43,919 nucleotides of DNA from a virus. Below, piece by piece: positions 7,395 through 13,773 of the stretch. The notes below the pieces were generated by a model, which was not told the origin of the DNA, did not search any database, and saw nothing but the letters and a program-made list of their open reading frames with translations. The first letter of the stretch is position 1. Each line of letters begins with the position of its first letter. Position numbers and translations under genes: made by a program. The DNA lies in the IMG/VR virus record IMGVR_UViG_3300020190_000114, positions 1 through 43,919 of that record; one strand, given 5' to 3'.

Positions 7395-8264
7395 TCAGAA
7401 TTCCGAAACAACTTGAACTAAGTTTTTCATCTTATGTTCCATCAAGTATGAAAGGATATTTCCTTTGCGTGTTGGGGTGGAGTCTGCATACTTTTGCAGA
7501 ATAGATTTCTCCAACTCCACAGGTATGTATCTAAAGTCCACCATGCAGCGATTACGATCCCAGTTTCTTTTTACTTTGTCTGGCATATTTGCTGTACCAT
7601 CAAACACATTACCCACAATAAGAATCTGCTCTTGAATAGCAGCAGACTTCTTACTGGTCAGAGGAGTCTGACGCTTGCCATCAGTAATGAAACAATCGTC
7701 ATCAGACAGGACATTAGGAATGCCGTCGCTTGAGTCTCCTGCAAGAATATGGTTCACTAAGAACTCGGTTGGATTCTTGCACACAACAAATCCCTTTGTC
7801 ATGGGACTCCATTGACGAACATTCGGGTAAATTTGCAACTGCTGAAAATCTTTGTCGCTAGAAACAATAATGACCTGTTCGTTAATAGAGTGGTGCTTGG
7901 TCAAGATGGCGATCACATCATCTGCCTCTGCTCCTGGCACTCGCATATGGCGATACGGAAACACATCGTGAATCTCTTCGCGGATTCCGTCAATCATTCC
8001 ATAGATCGCCTTCCAATCAACATCAGACGACGCCTTTGCCTTGGCTCTGTTCTGTTTGTACTGAGGAAACACAGAGTTACGCCAGCACTTACCACCCTCA
8101 TGGCAGAGAACAATCTCACCGGCATCACGAAACTTCTGTCTGTATGTACGATAGATGTTCAGCACCGTGTGTCGTAACAGGTCTTCTGAAAACTGGGCAG
8201 CATCACCCTTTGTAAGAGCGAACAGGCTTCCCAACAGCACTTGGTTGTTATCAATTAGAATCAT
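7395..8264 (-). CDS. rnh: T4-type RNase H (FEN1-like 5'-3' exonuclease)
   Basis: A 289-residue FEN1/T4 RNase H family nuclease that removes RNA primers from lagging-strand fragments. Visible are the N-terminal ILIDNNQVLL with the first acidic ligand, GAEADDVIA (111-119), SSDKDFQQL (135-143) and GDSSDGIPN (176-184), the acidic metal-binding and helix-hairpin-helix sequences of the family. WRNSVFPQYKQNR matches the arch region (W-R-x-x-x-x-P-x-Y-K). Its length is close to T4 RNase H (305). The start shares bases with the stop of the preceding gene (TAATG). Confidence 0.9.
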   Translation of the reverse strand: MILIDNNQVLLGSLFALTKGDAAQFSEDLLRHTVLNIYRTYRQKFRDAGEIVLCHEGGKCWRNSVFPQYKQNRAKAKASSDVDWKAIYGMIDGIREEIHDVFPYRHMRVPGAEADDVIAILTKHHSINEQVIIVSSDKDFQQLQIYPNVRQWSPMTKGFVVCKNPTEFLVNHILAGDSSDGIPNVLSDDDCFITDGKRQTPLTSKKSAAIQEQILIVGNVFDGTANMPDKVKRNWDRNRCMVDFRYIPVELEKSILQKYADSTPTRKGNILSYLMEHKMKNLVQVVSEF

Positions 8265-9370
8265 TAGTAGGCTCCAATGAGAATACAGTTCTCATTGATT
8301 CTCCCGCTCATCTTTGCGGGTTTGGTCTTGATGGTGTTCATCACAGTTTGTACTGCACGAACACCAGTAAGTTTGCTCAACACATCCTTTGGTTTGCGGA
8401 GTTTCTTGGATACAGACTTGGCTTCATCGTAGTTGATGATGGTGGTTCCCTTTACGCTGAGTCCACGCGGATCTTTTGCAAAGAGTACAGTTAGTGTACG
8501 GTACTTCTCGTTAAACACAACCACCATTTCGCTGCCAATGATCTTCTCTGGCGATACGCTTTTGATGCTGTATTCCTTAGACTCAGCCAAGTACTTTACC
8601 TTCTTGATGATTTGGTCAGGACTCTTCTGCTTTTTCTTGCGAGGCTTACGCTCGGAACGCTTCTCGTCAGCAAATATACGGAAAGCATTAGCCGTTTCTG
8701 AAAGCATCTGTATGAGTTTCTTGAAACGCGGCTTGGTCAGAAAGGAATATCCCTCGACCAGTTGTTCATCTTTGCCAGCATATGCTGTTGCCATCTCTTG
8801 CAGATAGGTGTTTTCAATGTATGCGGCAATTTTACCACAATGTAATGCCTTGACTCCGTGGGTAGTTGCCCACCCGGCAGGATCAAACTTCATCTCTTGC
8901 TTCTTTGAGCAAGCATCCACAACTGAATCCACGAATGCATCAATGTCACCCAAGTACTCGCGGTACTTCTGCTCGGTGCGCTCTTGGATGGACGGCAGAG
9001 CGGTGCCCTGACGCTTGGCGAGGACGGCAGCACCAGTTCGCTTTAGATCCTCAATCTCGCGTGTAATCTTCTGTGTAGTTTCATCTGGCAACGGAGCGCC
9101 GCGAGTAAGCATTCGGCACAGATATCCTATGCCAGAATAACTCTTGATGCTATTTTGTGCAATGCACTTGATTGTTTCAGCATCCATCTTGGAATGCTTG
9201 CAGTAGTCTAATACCCACCGCTTTTTGTCTCGTTTGGTTCCTTTACCCCAATACCAACTAATAGCCCGTTGAAGCGCAGAGTCTTCCTCATCTTTTGAGG
9301 CAAAAGACTCTGCGCTCCAAACAGGCTCAGAACCATATGCGCGTTCTAGTGTTTTGTTGTAATTTTTCAT
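8264..9370 (-). CDS. Unknown conserved-looking protein with Lys-rich linker
   Basis: A 368-residue protein I do not recognise. The N-terminal half is helical and charged (DKKRWVLDYCKHSK, GYLCRMLTRG, EYLGDIDAFVDSVVDAC). A basic segment (KRSERKPRKKKQK, about residues 243-255) separates it from a more beta-rich C-terminal part with VVVFNEKYRTLTVLFA, LSVKGTTIINYDEA and SVSKKLRKPKDVL. Being just upstream of RNase H and preceded by its own promoter, it is probably an early protein acting on nucleic acid, but this is only context. The ATG lies about three bases after the predicted transcription start, so the mRNA may be nearly leaderless. Confidence 0.6.
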   Translation of the reverse strand: MKNYNKTLERAYGSEPVWSAESFASKDEEDSALQRAISWYWGKGTKRDKKRWVLDYCKHSKMDAETIKCIAQNSIKSYSGIGYLCRMLTRGAPLPDETTQKITREIEDLKRTGAAVLAKRQGTALPSIQERTEQKYREYLGDIDAFVDSVVDACSKKQEMKFDPAGWATTHGVKALHCGKIAAYIENTYLQEMATAYAGKDEQLVEGYSFLTKPRFKKLIQMLSETANAFRIFADEKRSERKPRKKKQKSPDQIIKKVKYLAESKEYSIKSVSPEKIIGSEMVVVFNEKYRTLTVLFAKDPRGLSVKGTTIINYDEAKSVSKKLRKPKDVLSKLTGVRAVQTVMNTIKTKPAKMSGRINENCILIGAY

Positions 9371-9408: not shown

Positions 9409-10572
9409 TCACTTTACAAGTTTAGGTTCAAATGCCTCAGTCTTTGATGATGATGGCGTCAAACCTATAGTCTTAACAAGGCTACGAGAAAGGGCAAGAA
9501 CGCCCGCATATGGATCTACATTGGCGCTTGGACGGCGATCTTCGATGTACAGCAGATGTGCCGCATCCGTGTTCAAAGGAACGGTAGGCACACACAGAGA
9601 TGCAGTACGATCACCAAATCCCCAAGTGAACTTGTTGAAGTCGCTGATTCCGCCTGTCTTTCCAACCAGGCGTTGCTCATTGCCTGCACCATATGCTGCC
9701 ATATGTTCGCGGTGATCTTCTCCAATGGTTTCGCAAATTGACTTGGCGAGTCCTGCATTTCCACTAGACTTGGTGTAGTTGTCCATGTACAGACGGAAGA
9801 TACATCCGTTACCATTCCATTCTGTGCCAGGAAAACTCTTTGGTGCATAACTGATTACACACCGAGGATTATCTCGATCTTCTGCCGTATTTTCCAACAG
9901 ATACCGCAAGATAATCAGATTGTCGCAAGCAGTCAGAGCATCAGTTTCTTCAGTAACAAATGACCATTGTGATAGGCAGATTGCTGCATTGTATGAATGC
10001 ATACTGATTCCTCTCCACGCACATCGGTCGTAGAAAGAAGCAACCAGTTCTCTGCCTCGTTGAAAGTCGCCAGAACCACCATAGTATCTGCCTTGAGGAC
10101 CAGGGAATACAACTTGGGGTTCTCCCTTTTCATTCTTTCCTACTGGCCAGCGATACGGTTGACGAGTATCAGGATCAATGAGTAAAGCATCCTGCTCGAA
10201 TCCAATCTTCACACTCTTCAAATCGTTTGTGCTGAGAAACTTTCGCAGATCAGCACGGGCATTAGATGCATGAGGAGTTCCATCTGCGGTTTGTACTTCA
10301 CACAACACAATACCCGAGTCGCGGGTCATACCTTCAAACATGAAATGTCTGATGGTACGAACGGGAACCAAGAACAGATCAGCATTATCTGTCGATGCTT
10401 GCTTGCAAGCAGAACCATCGAATCGCTGTGTCTTGGGAGTTTCTCCAACTGAGGTGTAGTTAGCACTACGAATAGTACCATCACCAGCCAACCAAATGTA
10501 AGTCCAATCCATTACTATAACTGGCTTCTTCTCATCATTTTCCACTTTCGCATACTCACTCTTCTTTGCCAT
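9409..10572 (-). CDS. Glutamine synthetase II-like protein with degenerate active site
   Basis: A 387-residue protein aligning along its whole length with eukaryotic-type glutamine synthetase (GSII). Shared signatures are TYIWLAGDGTIRS, FDGSA (51-55), LFLVP (66-70), VLCEV (89-93), GFEQDALL (124-131), FPGPQGRYYGG (156-166), GRELV, WNGNGC (252-257), and EDRRPSANVDP (344-354). Many catalytic positions are changed: the Glu of NAEV is Ala197, the Glu of QWEF is Ser204, the metal-binding His of GCH is Ile258, the flap Glu of GFHE is Gly307 and the second substrate Arg is Cys327. Glu126 and Glu344 remain. It is therefore probably not an active glutamine synthetase. It could regulate host enzyme, be a structural fold, or have a new activity. 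It starts by TAATG coupling to the methylase gene. Confidence 0.85.
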   Translation of the reverse strand: MAKKSEYAKVENDEKKPVIVMDWTYIWLAGDGTIRSANYTSVGETPKTQRFDGSACKQASTDNADLFLVPVRTIRHFMFEGMTRDSGIVLCEVQTADGTPHASNARADLRKFLSTNDLKSVKIGFEQDALLIDPDTRQPYRWPVGKNEKGEPQVVFPGPQGRYYGGSGDFQRGRELVASFYDRCAWRGISMHSYNAAICLSQWSFVTEETDALTACDNLIILRYLLENTAEDRDNPRCVISYAPKSFPGTEWNGNGCIFRLYMDNYTKSSGNAGLAKSICETIGEDHREHMAAYGAGNEQRLVGKTGGISDFNKFTWGFGDRTASLCVPTVPLNTDAAHLLYIEDRRPSANVDPYAGVLALSRSLVKTIGLTPSSSKTEAFEPKLVK

Positions 10573-12206
10573 TATGATCTCTCCTTTGGTTTGTAAAACA
10601 CATAAACAGGTTCATACTTCATGTAGTCACCATCAATCTTGCAATAGTTCTTGCACATGGGAAGACCTGTTTCTTCATCAAGTCGATTTTGCCCAGGCAT
10701 AGATTCCATCGCCATCTTCACCTTGTATTTATACACAAGTCCGAACTCTTCAAGGAATCTTCGTGAATCTTCTTCAAGTGGAAGATATTCCCCGCCAATT
10801 TGAATGTCTGCGATGTTCCATAACAAGTAGCGATCAGGCTTCAAGAACTCAGCACAAGTCTTCAGCGTTGGTCGCAGGAACCCATCACGCCAACTTTCAT
10901 ACGACGAACCATACTTCTTGTACGATTGGTTCTCGTCCTGAGAGTAGGCTTCTCTGTTGAAGTATGGAGGACTTGTGAAGATCATGTCGATCTTGCCCTT
11001 GTACTTCTTGAAGCGTGGATCTTTGCCAATCTCTTCTGAACCTAGTCTGTAGATTTCGTAGGTGTTGGTTTCGCTGAAGAACGGATTGCCTCGGTATGTC
11101 TTGGTATTGTAGAAATCTGCAACATCGGCATAACGAGGACGCTCTTCACCCGTGTCTTCGTCAATGTAGTACAGTTCAGGGTTTGGATCGGTTCCGATGT
11201 AATGAATCTTGCGATCATCGCGCACACTCATGGCGCCAAGAATACGACCTCCCCATCCCGATGAAGGATCGTAGATCACAAGCGGAGTCTTCTGCTCCTT
11301 GGCGTGTTCCGTGAACCGCTCGTACAGATACTTGGCGGTCATGGGTGGGAAGTTGTGTGCCACTTGAATGTATCCAATGCGGAACGCAGCAAACCCCTTC
11401 GGGAACACACGCTCGCCTTTCTTGTAAATGCGAATGGTGTATACCTTATCATCGGGCATGGCACTCACATCGAAAGTGGAGAAGTGCCGGTACTGCAACA
11501 CTCCTTCGTCCTTGAGTTTCTGAACCTGTTCTCGGGTGAGATTCAGAATGTCAGACTGATTCAGTTGGAAGTATCCTGTATTGTTGCCTTCACGAATCTT
11601 CACCTGTTCAAGCATGAAGTCGTAACCCTTGAAGATTTCCTTGTTGGTTTGGAATGCCTTGATCCAAGTCATTGCATCGGGCACAGACACAAGAGCAGGT
11701 TTAGGATTGTTACGCAAGCATGAGAGGGCGTGCATATACAGCGAGTCTCTACGGAAGTGACGCATTGATCCCTTCGCCATGCGATCAAGGAACCGATCTT
11801 CAGCAAACAGTTCATAGATGGAGTATCCATCATCCTTCTCGCTGTAGTTGATGCGAGTCTTCATCATGGTTGGAAACCATTGATCCACTTCAGAACCAAG
11901 CCTTGCCTTGTTCAGAATCACATCTTTGCCGATGTCTTCCAGTTCATCGTCAAACTCAAACGACTTCACAGGATACTCAGCCATCTTGTTCCACTCTTCA
12001 ATGATGTCTTCTTCAATCTTCCCGATGCGCGGAGGACATCCCTTGTTGTCCCAAATATCGACGACTGCCTTACGCATATTGACAACCCACTCACGGAACT
12101 TGTCCGCGTCCATCTCTAGCAATTCTTCAAAGGTGACATTTACTGGGTGAGTAAGGAGATGAGTGTTCTTCTCAAAGAAGGTTTTGTGCGCTTGTAGAGT
12201 TTCCAT
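10572..12206 (-). CDS. DNA methyltransferase, N4-cytosine/N6-adenine type
   Basis: A 544-residue protein. The C-terminal half carries an amino-methyltransferase: SAM-binding motif I is VIYDPSSGWGGRILGA (around residue 310), followed by YIGTDPNPEL, and catalytic motif IV is IFTSPPYFNRE (around 408). The S-P-P-Y form is typical of N4-cytosine enzymes but also occurs in N6-adenine enzymes. The N-terminal 300 residues (helical, with RHFRRDSLYMHALS) have no motif I recognise and may recognise DNA or another partner. No restriction nuclease gene accompanies it, so it is likely an orphan methylase that protects or marks phage DNA. Start and stop both overlap neighbours by TAATG. Confidence 0.82.
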   Translation of the reverse strand: METLQAHKTFFEKNTHLLTHPVNVTFEELLEMDADKFREWVVNMRKAVVDIWDNKGCPPRIGKIEEDIIEEWNKMAEYPVKSFEFDDELEDIGKDVILNKARLGSEVDQWFPTMMKTRINYSEKDDGYSIYELFAEDRFLDRMAKGSMRHFRRDSLYMHALSCLRNNPKPALVSVPDAMTWIKAFQTNKEIFKGYDFMLEQVKIREGNNTGYFQLNQSDILNLTREQVQKLKDEGVLQYRHFSTFDVSAMPDDKVYTIRIYKKGERVFPKGFAAFRIGYIQVAHNFPPMTAKYLYERFTEHAKEQKTPLVIYDPSSGWGGRILGAMSVRDDRKIHYIGTDPNPELYYIDEDTGEERPRYADVADFYNTKTYRGNPFFSETNTYEIYRLGSEEIGKDPRFKKYKGKIDMIFTSPPYFNREAYSQDENQSYKKYGSSYESWRDGFLRPTLKTCAEFLKPDRYLLWNIADIQIGGEYLPLEEDSRRFLEEFGLVYKYKVKMAMESMPGQNRLDEETGLPMCKNYCKIDGDYMKYEPVYVFYKPKERS

Positions 12207-13111
12207 TATGATTCCATTCTTTGCTGTACTTCAGTTTCACTAAGTCTGCGTCCAACCACCCAAAAGCAAGTACTCTTGTTCATGTCAATGTTCTCGCGCA
12301 TCCACTTGTGTGCCTTTGCTTCGTACAGATCGTCAAGGATTGTACCATCTTCTATCTTTTCCACAAGAGGTTTTCCGTACACGGTATTTAGGCAATGCAA
12401 CTCGTAGTCTGGCAGCGGATATCCTGTCATTGGATTTACCCACTTGTTGATGTTCTCGGTTCGCTTTGGACCAACACACAATCCAATCACTTTACCTACT
12501 CTGATACTGTACCGATGTATTCCTCGGAGAATGGCAGCAAAGTGAACTCCACTACCCACAGGAACAACTAATTGATCCAACTGGTTCGGTAGGTTGCCTA
12601 CCTGACTCTCAATGCCATCAATGATTGCGTCTTCTCTGTTTTCAATGTTATGGGTAAAGACTGCATCGTACAAGTTTTCAGTCTTAGCAATCTCTCGCAT
12701 TCTAGCAAGCACAGGACCGTGCATACCAGTACCACACACATTTCGTACATCCGCTCCAAGTGCTTTGGCATAACGCATCATGTGATGATTGTCTACGGTA
12801 TCGGGGGAACTTCCACCAATGCAAATGGTGCATGGTATGTTCAGGTCTTTGCACACTCTGGCTATGATTGTTCCTGTAGTGGAATGAACCTGCGAATGAG
12901 TGATCACTCCGCTATACTTGCTACGCAATTCCTCTTGTATGGGATACAGCAACTGGATTGCTTGTCTAACTTTACCACCATTCACATCTCCCGCCCCATA
13001 CGGGGTGTACATATCATCCCGCTTGTAGAACACGCCCCCCACATACTGCACAGGAGTGCGATTCATCACATGGGCGGGAAATCTATTTGAAACCTCGTAC
13101 TCTGTTTTCAT
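12206..13111 (-). CDS. Fold-type II PLP-dependent enzyme (ACC deaminase/D-cysteine desulfhydrase-like)
   Basis: A 301-residue protein of the tryptophan-synthase-beta PLP fold. FYKRDDMYTPYGAGDVNGGKVRQ (28-50) matches the K-R-D-D...G-G-N-K-x-R segment, with Lys47 as the expected PLP Schiff base. GVITHSQVHSTTGTIIARV replaces the usual Q-S-N-H motif, so the substrate pocket differs from ACC deaminase and D-cysteine desulfhydrase. CTICIGGSS and LVVPVGSGVHFAAIL (phosphate-binding glycine loop) follow. It should act on an amino acid or amino-acid-like group; which one is unknown. It sits between two DNA-methyltransferase-like genes with ATGA/TAATG overlaps, implying a shared pathway. Confidence 0.8.
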   Translation of the reverse strand: MKTEYEVSNRFPAHVMNRTPVQYVGGVFYKRDDMYTPYGAGDVNGGKVRQAIQLLYPIQEELRSKYSGVITHSQVHSTTGTIIARVCKDLNIPCTICIGGSSPDTVDNHHMMRYAKALGADVRNVCGTGMHGPVLARMREIAKTENLYDAVFTHNIENREDAIIDGIESQVGNLPNQLDQLVVPVGSGVHFAAILRGIHRYSIRVGKVIGLCVGPKRTENINKWVNPMTGYPLPDYELHCLNTVYGKPLVEKIEDGTILDDLYEAKAHKWMRENIDMNKSTCFWVVGRRLSETEVQQRMES

Positions 13112-13773
13112 ATAGGTAAAGATGCCTTAGAATGATTGAATGTAGGATCGTAGAACTTTTCTTCCAGTTCACATCCCCACCACTTGCGACCAGTAGTGCT
13201 GGCAGCAAGCAGAACAGGGGCAACACCCGCAAACGGATCTACAACCAAATCTCCTGGCTTGGTAAGGTTTTCAATCACATACTTGCAGAAGTCTTGCGAC
13301 CACACAGATTGATTTAGTACCTTCTCTTGCTGATCCACATAGATGTCTCGTAGCCAGTCTCCCTTGCGGTGGATCACTCCCTCGCTTGTATACACAAGCA
13401 TATGTTGGAAAGTGAAGTAGTACATATCGCGCTTGCCCACTTCGTTTCTGACCACAACTTTGTAGTCCTTCAGATGAAGTCCCTCGTTCTCTAGGCATTG
13501 CGCGTACCACATATGATTCGACAGAATGAAACCATTCACCCTACGATCAGTCTGGCACACCACAACAAAGCCAGTAGGTTTCACAATACGAGCAAACTCC
13601 TGCATTGCCTTCTGCTGAAACAGCCGATACGAATCAGTCTCGTCTTTACCAAACGGAGTCTGAGACAGGTCTGGGCATGAGGTAAACACTAGGTCTACTG
13701 ATTCGGATGGGATACTAGGCAGATAGTCAAAGGCATCACCTAGCACATATGAGTTCTCTTGAAATTTTGTCAT
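13108..13773 (-). CDS. DNA methyltransferase-like protein with SCPD in place of SPPY
   Basis: A 221-residue beta-class amino-methyltransferase fold. The N-terminus YVLGDAFDYLPSIPSESVDL is the usual lead-in to motif IV, but the catalytic tetrapeptide reads TSCPDLSQ (31-38) instead of TSPPY. The C-terminal motif X/I part is intact: SQDFCKYVIENLTKPGDLVVDPFAGVAPVLLAA, then WWGCELEE. The loss of the second Pro and the aromatic residue suggests altered target, substrate or lost catalysis. It is coupled by ATGA overlaps to gp46 upstream and the PLP enzyme downstream. Alternatives include a family of methylases in which this variant is normal. Confidence 0.75.
   Translation of the reverse strand: MTKFQENSYVLGDAFDYLPSIPSESVDLVFTSCPDLSQTPFGKDETDSYRLFQQKAMQEFARIVKPTGFVVVCQTDRRVNGFILSNHMWYAQCLENEGLHLKDYKVVVRNEVGKRDMYYFTFQHMLVYTSEGVIHRKGDWLRDIYVDQQEKVLNQSVWSQDFCKYVIENLTKPGDLVVDPFAGVAPVLLAASTTGRKWWGCELEEKFYDPTFNHSKASLPI

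Follow-up and report, generated by a model that had tools for sequence, protein, structure and literature searches.

A viral type II glutamine synthetase (GSII) with a dismantled active site, which we refer to as pseudo-GS, is encoded in a DNA stretch of 43,919 nucleotides (IMG/VR record IMGVR_UViG_3300020190_000114; hereafter the window). We interpret pseudo-GS and its closest relatives as a maintained pseudoenzyme under purifying selection, neither an artefact nor a product of fresh decay, because the same pattern extends across a whole clade, dN/dS is about 0.14, the predicted fold is retained and the losses are concentrated in the pocket. The genes for portal, sheath, terminase, gp46/gp47, clamp loader and late sigma factor mark the window as a piece of a T4-like myovirus genome, and its portal is 52% identical, over 68%, to that of the marine phage Melnitz. 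No tRNAs were found in the window, and no Rfam family, including the glutamine riboswitch, reached its gathering score in the eight sources searched. The features discussed below are listed in Table 1.

Table 1. Features of the pseudo-GS region in window coordinates.
Feature	Coordinates	Strand	Basis or remark
p8264, 368 aa, phrog_11903, conserved downstream neighbour	8264..9370	-	family match
pseudo-GS, GSII-fold pseudoenzyme, 387 aa	9409..10572	-	homology, residue alignment, predicted fold
F-x-PKLV C-terminal tail	9412..9444	-	in 10/10 clade members
Cys327, at substrate Arg316	9592..9594	-	C/S in clade
Gly307, at flap Glu	9652..9654	-	G/Q/N in clade
Arg260-x-Tyr262, at ATP-end Asn251 and Ser253	9787..9795	-	invariant in clade
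Ile258, at metal ligand His249	9799..9801	-	I/V/C/N/T in clade
Ser204, at metal ligand Glu199	9961..9963	-	S/T in clade
Ala197, at metal ligand Glu192	9982..9984	-	A/G/S in clade
MT1, 544 aa N6/N4-type DNA methyltransferase homologue	10572..12206	-	SPPY at aa 412; stop overlaps pseudo-GS start
PALP, PLP-dependent enzyme homologue	12206..13111	-	Pfam PALP; putative PLP Lys47 kept
MT2, 221 aa N6/N4 methyltransferase homologue	13108..13773	-	motif IV SCPD instead of [SDN]PPY
MT2 altered motif, aa 32-35	13669..13680	-	SCPD in clade and L139, SMPD in L043

Family and predicted fold

By descent, sequence and predicted fold, pseudo-GS is a full-length type II glutamine synthetase. The protein matches the NCBIfam GlnII profile over residues 24-357 (E 1.9e-50) with 172 bits, below the equivalog cut-off of 500, and the solved plant GSII 4is4 over residues 24-358 (E 6e-49), while it passes Pfam Gln-synt_C narrowly (25.5 bits vs a cut-off of 24). 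Its identity to intact GSII is 30-38%, and 31-34% to the three bacterial GSII compared. An AF2 model built on a 77-row alignment has a pLDDT of 91.0 and a pTM of 0.90, and its superposition on maize GSII 2d3a by VIA-align has a Z-score of 40.1 and 2.3 Å over 329 residues; the top matches are GSII, with GSI lower, and Foldseek agrees. The GSII fold spans residues 16-370 of the model. Since the rows behind this model are mostly intact GSII, it shows compatibility with the fold and is not independent proof of it; a model from the ten-row clade alignment alone (pLDDT 35.6) was set aside and the 77-row model used instead. Given the retained fold, pseudo-GS presumably assembles into rings.

The earlier note on this DNA, made from the letters alone, had taken a retained fold as a sign of a new role, and an intact reading frame and translational coupling as arguments against decay; the reading frame and the coupling are both confirmed. 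The fold was recovered by the structure prediction and superposition given above. The gene is a single uninterrupted open reading frame with an ATG start and no internal stop, its ATG shares one base with the stop codon of the upstream MT1 gene (taATG), and an AAGGAG motif lies upstream of the start. The C-terminal tail, F-x-PKLV, is present in all ten clade members described below and absent from six intact GSII aligned; the model is of low confidence there (pLDDT about 54), and the tail is a candidate binding motif.

Active-site substitutions and the dismantled clade

We take the flap Glu to be E297, with R291 and R332 in the same GSII numbering, and we assume that N251, S253 and the second Ser of FDGSS line the ATP end of the GSII site. 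The catalytic set given for the Medicago enzyme MtGSII in the available part of the source comprises E129/E131/E192/E199/H249/E330 together with R311/R316 (PMC3975887). Ten distinct sequences share the dismantled site (the window, L002, L003, L004, L005, L014, L018, L019, L021 and L026). These were drawn from the window and 12 viral contigs, some with repeated sequence, and the N-terminus of L026 is cut by the contig end.

None of the ten sequences retains E192, E199, H249, the flap Glu or R316. The five corresponding residues that had first been picked out in the window (Ala197, Ser204, Ile258, Gly307 and Cys327) are all real substitutions by alignment to MtGSII, although that inventory overlooked three further changes: metal ligand E131 is Asp (D128 in the window) in eight of the ten sequences, R260 and Y262 stand in place of N251 and S253 at the ATP end in all ten, and the second Ser of FDGSS is Ala55, invariant in the clade. 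V303 is also newly fixed (10/10). Retained residues include E129 (9/10, with Asp in the remaining sequence), R311 (8/10), E330, R291 and R332 (10/10 each), and E344-D345-R346 and R301 (10/10). Four of the six metal ligands of a GS enzyme are changed in pseudo-GS, three of these lost outright, and its set of flap Glu, Arg311 and Arg316 is likewise incomplete. Judging from these residues, pseudo-GS very probably has no glutamine synthetase activity.

Misalignment and chance were both ruled out. The QW, WNG, EDRRP and RLxG anchors set the register, and a check for catalytic Glu or His residues at displaced positions, a finding that the earlier note would have counted against its reading, located none in the alignment. 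E208 and E209 lie 4-5 residues past S204, and L026 has Pro at 209.

The dismantled sequences are monophyletic in the tree, with support of 100/100 and a stem branch about 1.4 changes per column long, and their exact sister has no supported placement; the clade records examined contain no internal stops. Median dN/dS of pseudo-GS is 0.136 (33 usable of 45 pairs; 12 dropped) and that of seven neighbour genes ranges from 0.031 to 0.115, figures that are rough since dS is near or past saturation in many pairs. Pseudo-GS is the fastest-evolving of the eight genes compared, yet it is clearly constrained.

Column counts were made on 10 clade and 70 intact rows out of 81, with L041, which is identical to L014, left out, and the pocket was defined as the segments named in PMC3975887, to which the flap loop and two Arg were added. 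Eighty columns are at least 93% conserved in the 70 intact rows, and 24 of them are lost in the clade: 13/22 in the pocket vs 11/58 elsewhere (Fisher p = 8e-4). Restricting the test to the 11 catalytic positions gave 6/11 lost vs 18/69 others (p = 0.063). In intact GSII the pocket is more conserved than the core (0.737 vs 0.488), and the corresponding values in the clade are 0.673 vs 0.729; within the clade, however, the pocket is not significantly less conserved than the rest (417 of 2000 circular shifts were as low). Mean identity within the clade is 0.43 in segment 192-197 and 0.49 in segment 204-209. The original suggestion of selective loss with a retained fold is supported by the clade pattern, purifying selection, the predicted fold and the loss directed at the pocket, with p = 8e-4 for the pocket and p = 0.06 for the 11 residues alone.

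Intact counterparts and the methyltransferase cassette

A broader profile scan of viral contigs gave at least 579 confirmed relatives, the best 80 of which comprise three clade members and 77 others. All 11 catalytic residues are present in 77/77 of these non-clade viral loci (among the best 80 of at least 579), which argues that the dismantled site did not arise by chance, and the three huge-phage and three bacterial GSII likewise have all of them. The huge-phage loci (LR756501, LR756502 and LR745206) come from a tblastn search of 50,697 phage records with the window protein, which matched five records, four of them huge metagenomic phages; the fifth (H5, L010) matched weakly and was kept out of all residue counts. 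An intact GSII probe also matched five phage records. With at least 579 stretches, GSII is very common among viral contigs, yet in the annotated phage collection a clear one occurs only in huge metagenomic phages. A scan of cellular genome contigs returned one relative, an intact GSII of Afipia, and in its class a match was found in 3/115 genomes, all three intact; no dismantled cellular copy was found among the cellular GSII read from that scan and those three genomes.

Some viral contigs carry further variations on intact GSII. L114 has an intact GSII (L114:9542-10804) and, about 2.5 kb on, a very divergent GS-like ORF (L114:6007-7014) in which the flap Glu is Gly and R311 is Lys, possibly an independent partial loss. 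In L047:5512-6942, L079:2922-4355 and L081:5653-7047, a thioredoxin/glutaredoxin-like CxxC domain lies in the same frame ahead of an intact GSII, as recognised by a Pfam Thioredoxin match just under the cut-off in L047 and by reading in L079 and L081.

The order of genes in the clade, in contigs reaching that far, is gp47-gp46-MT2-PALP-MT1-GS-p8264-RNaseH, with about 1 kb between gp46 and MT2 in L018. With its altered motif IV, MT2 appears to be a second altered enzyme in the pseudo-GS cassette. MT1 also adjoins intact GSII in 18 of the 77 non-clade loci, preceding it in 16 and following it in L068 and L070, and the matched part of these MT1 proteins is 57-71% identical to window MT1. Pseudo-GS is the positional counterpart of intact phage GSII. 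The whole order gp47-gp46-MT2-PALP-MT1-GSII-p8264-RNaseH is found in L043 with a GSII that has all catalytic residues, and L139 has MT2, PALP, MT1 and an intact GSII. These two contigs hold the cassette with an intact enzyme, so the cassette probably predates the active-site loss and the gene was probably dismantled in place. L043 and L139 are outgroup contigs without a supported grouping with the dismantled lineage in the tree, so that gene order carries more weight than the tree in the case for descent in place.

A profile of MT1 was used to view the same association from the side of the methyltransferase, in the best 80 of 247 confirmed loci, many of which are on contigs that are close kin, so that the counts are not independent. 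A GS ORF is present at 42 of these 80 loci and abuts MT1 in 42/42, downstream in 39 and upstream in 3; the occurrence of both orders indicates that the adjacency outlasts an order swap. The GS at those 42 loci is intact in 31, dismantled in 10 and cut off in 1. Among the 49 MT1 loci whose flanks reach at least 2.5 kb in each direction, 19 have GS only, nine have MT2, PALP and GS (eight clade contigs and L139), two have a second PALP-like type and GS, ten have that PALP-like type without GS, and nine have none of these. MT1 accompanies GSII, PLP-type proteins or both. The second, small PALP-like type beside MT1 (L138:5243-6004, L163:5255-6016, L180:5204-5962, L068:5090-5875) occurs mostly in phages without GSII.

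DNA modification as the pathway of the cassette is inferred from gene families only. PALP homologues are present in Ackermannviridae phages, which raises the idea of thymidine-type hypermodification as a tentative lead for PALP. The available part of PMC6449724 has no passage on PLP enzymes in the context of thymidine hypermodification.

Possible roles and known systems

The presence of intact GSII at the same locus beside MT1 in related phages suggests a role tied to MT1. We tentatively favour, at somewhat less than an even chance, an explanation in which pseudo-GS, derived from an active phage GSII, is a non-catalytic structural or regulatory partner of MT1 in a putative DNA-modification cassette. 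An active phage GSII would have sat in the MT2-PALP-MT1-GS cassette and could have had two jobs, glutamine synthesis and partnering MT1; the window lineage would then have dropped the former and kept the latter, with pseudo-GS acting without catalysis on the translationally coupled MT1 and the cassette modifying phage DNA. It is possible, though we consider it rather doubtful, that once the enzyme had been recruited and then dismantled, its GSII fold was kept more specifically to serve as a scaffold or allosteric subunit dedicated to a DNA methyltransferase, in a cassette where the motif of MT2 is altered too. MT1 occurs without any GS at 19/49 loci with full flanks, which indicates that a partner role is not obligatory, and the median dN/dS of pseudo-GS against that of MT1 (0.136 vs 0.039) fits a looser role. 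The adjacency of MT1 and GS may also merely reflect a conserved T4-like gene order.

Three roles had been proposed for this protein in the earlier note, and of these a sensor is possible, a ligase with another substrate is disfavoured and a dominant-negative partner of host GS is unsupported. As a sensor, which we think unlikely, pseudo-GS would use a rebuilt pocket to bind a nucleotide, SAM-related or amino-acid ligand without catalysis and so tune MT1 or PALP. The newly fixed R260, Y262, V303 and A55, which are not drifting (10/10), and the retained E344-D345-R346 and R301 would suit such a pocket, but much of the remaining pocket varies within the clade (notably the low-identity segments 192-197 and 204-209), and R260 and Y262 may plug the site at the ATP end instead of opening it.

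An ATP-dependent amide ligase that acts beside MT1 but on a different substrate, for instance a DNA base handle, is less probable still. It would have a precedent in CmoX/CmoY, where a methyltransferase homologue and an amide ligase act on phage DNA according to the available part of that report (PMC12783734), and E126, D128, E344 and R346 are largely kept. CmoY is nevertheless described there as an asparagine-synthetase homologue, not a GS. In pseudo-GS, E192, E199 and H249 are replaced and variable, the flap Glu is lost and the ATP end has neither N251 nor S253; the loss and variability of the metal centre, with Arg and Tyr fixed at the ATP end, are the reasons for which we disfavour this reading.

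There is only a slight chance that the gene is a relic being lost, in which glutamine supply ceased to matter, catalysis disappeared and the protein became nearly neutral: its rank as the fastest-evolving of the eight genes and the long stem branch are offset by the dN/dS of about 0.14, the ten distinct sequences without a stop and the fixed motifs, including the PKLV tail. The slimmest prospect is a dominant-negative subunit that poisons host GS rings, which pseudo-subunits with the GSII fold kept over residues 16-370 could in principle join, but which share 31-34% identity with the three bacterial GSII, have a relative in just 3/115 genomes of the single class sampled and would leave the conserved position beside MT1 unexplained.

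If pseudo-GS is a partner of MT1, a GS fold would be acting in nucleic-acid modification. Phage "auxiliary metabolic" GS genes are usually taken as nitrogen-supply genes, and a lineage in which the protein, its locus and its neighbour persist although the chemistry has gone suggests a second, non-metabolic function of phage GSII. Intact and dismantled versions next to one and the same MT1 provide a natural separation-of-function series for such a function. Calling glnA a metabolic gene is unsafe from a family match alone, as pseudo-GS itself passes Pfam Gln-synt_C. In the available part of a jumbo-phage survey, glnA is counted as a metabolic gene (PMC13037316), and the available part of the description of Melnitz gives a genome without glnA (PMC9004378).

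Viral GSII have been known since the GOS survey of 2007, where the active sites were described, in the part of the article available, as well conserved (PMC1821046). Such intact phage enzymes, including LR756501, LR756502 and LR745206, share the family and fold of pseudo-GS and in some viral contigs its locus beside MT1, but they keep the catalytic residues, whereas the window clade is without most metal and substrate residues. In the literature on phage glutamine synthetase, pseudoenzymes and auxiliary metabolic genes, in which subscription journals are mostly outside the scope covered, we found no description of a phage GS that has lost its active site. New here are the dismantled GSII variant, the commonness of intact GSII in viral contigs (77/77 with all 11 catalytic residues) and its position beside MT1 in 18/77.

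Lengsin of the vertebrate lens, a GS-fold protein regarded as non-enzymatic, is a known GS-fold pseudoenzyme and resembles pseudo-GS in both respects; it is an animal protein with an organisation that we take to be like that of bacterial-type GS, whereas pseudo-GS derives from phage GSII and has a separate origin. PMC3975887 refers to an EM structure of mouse lengsin. The nearest precedent for the gene neighbourhood, as far as the available text describes it, is CmoX/CmoY of phage DNA hypermodification, in which the gene for a DNA-methyltransferase homologue lies next to that for an ATP-dependent amide ligase (PMC12783734). The ligase in that system is an asparagine-synthetase homologue with demonstrated activity, whereas the ligase fold in the window is, by sequence and predicted fold, a GSII that has been dismantled.
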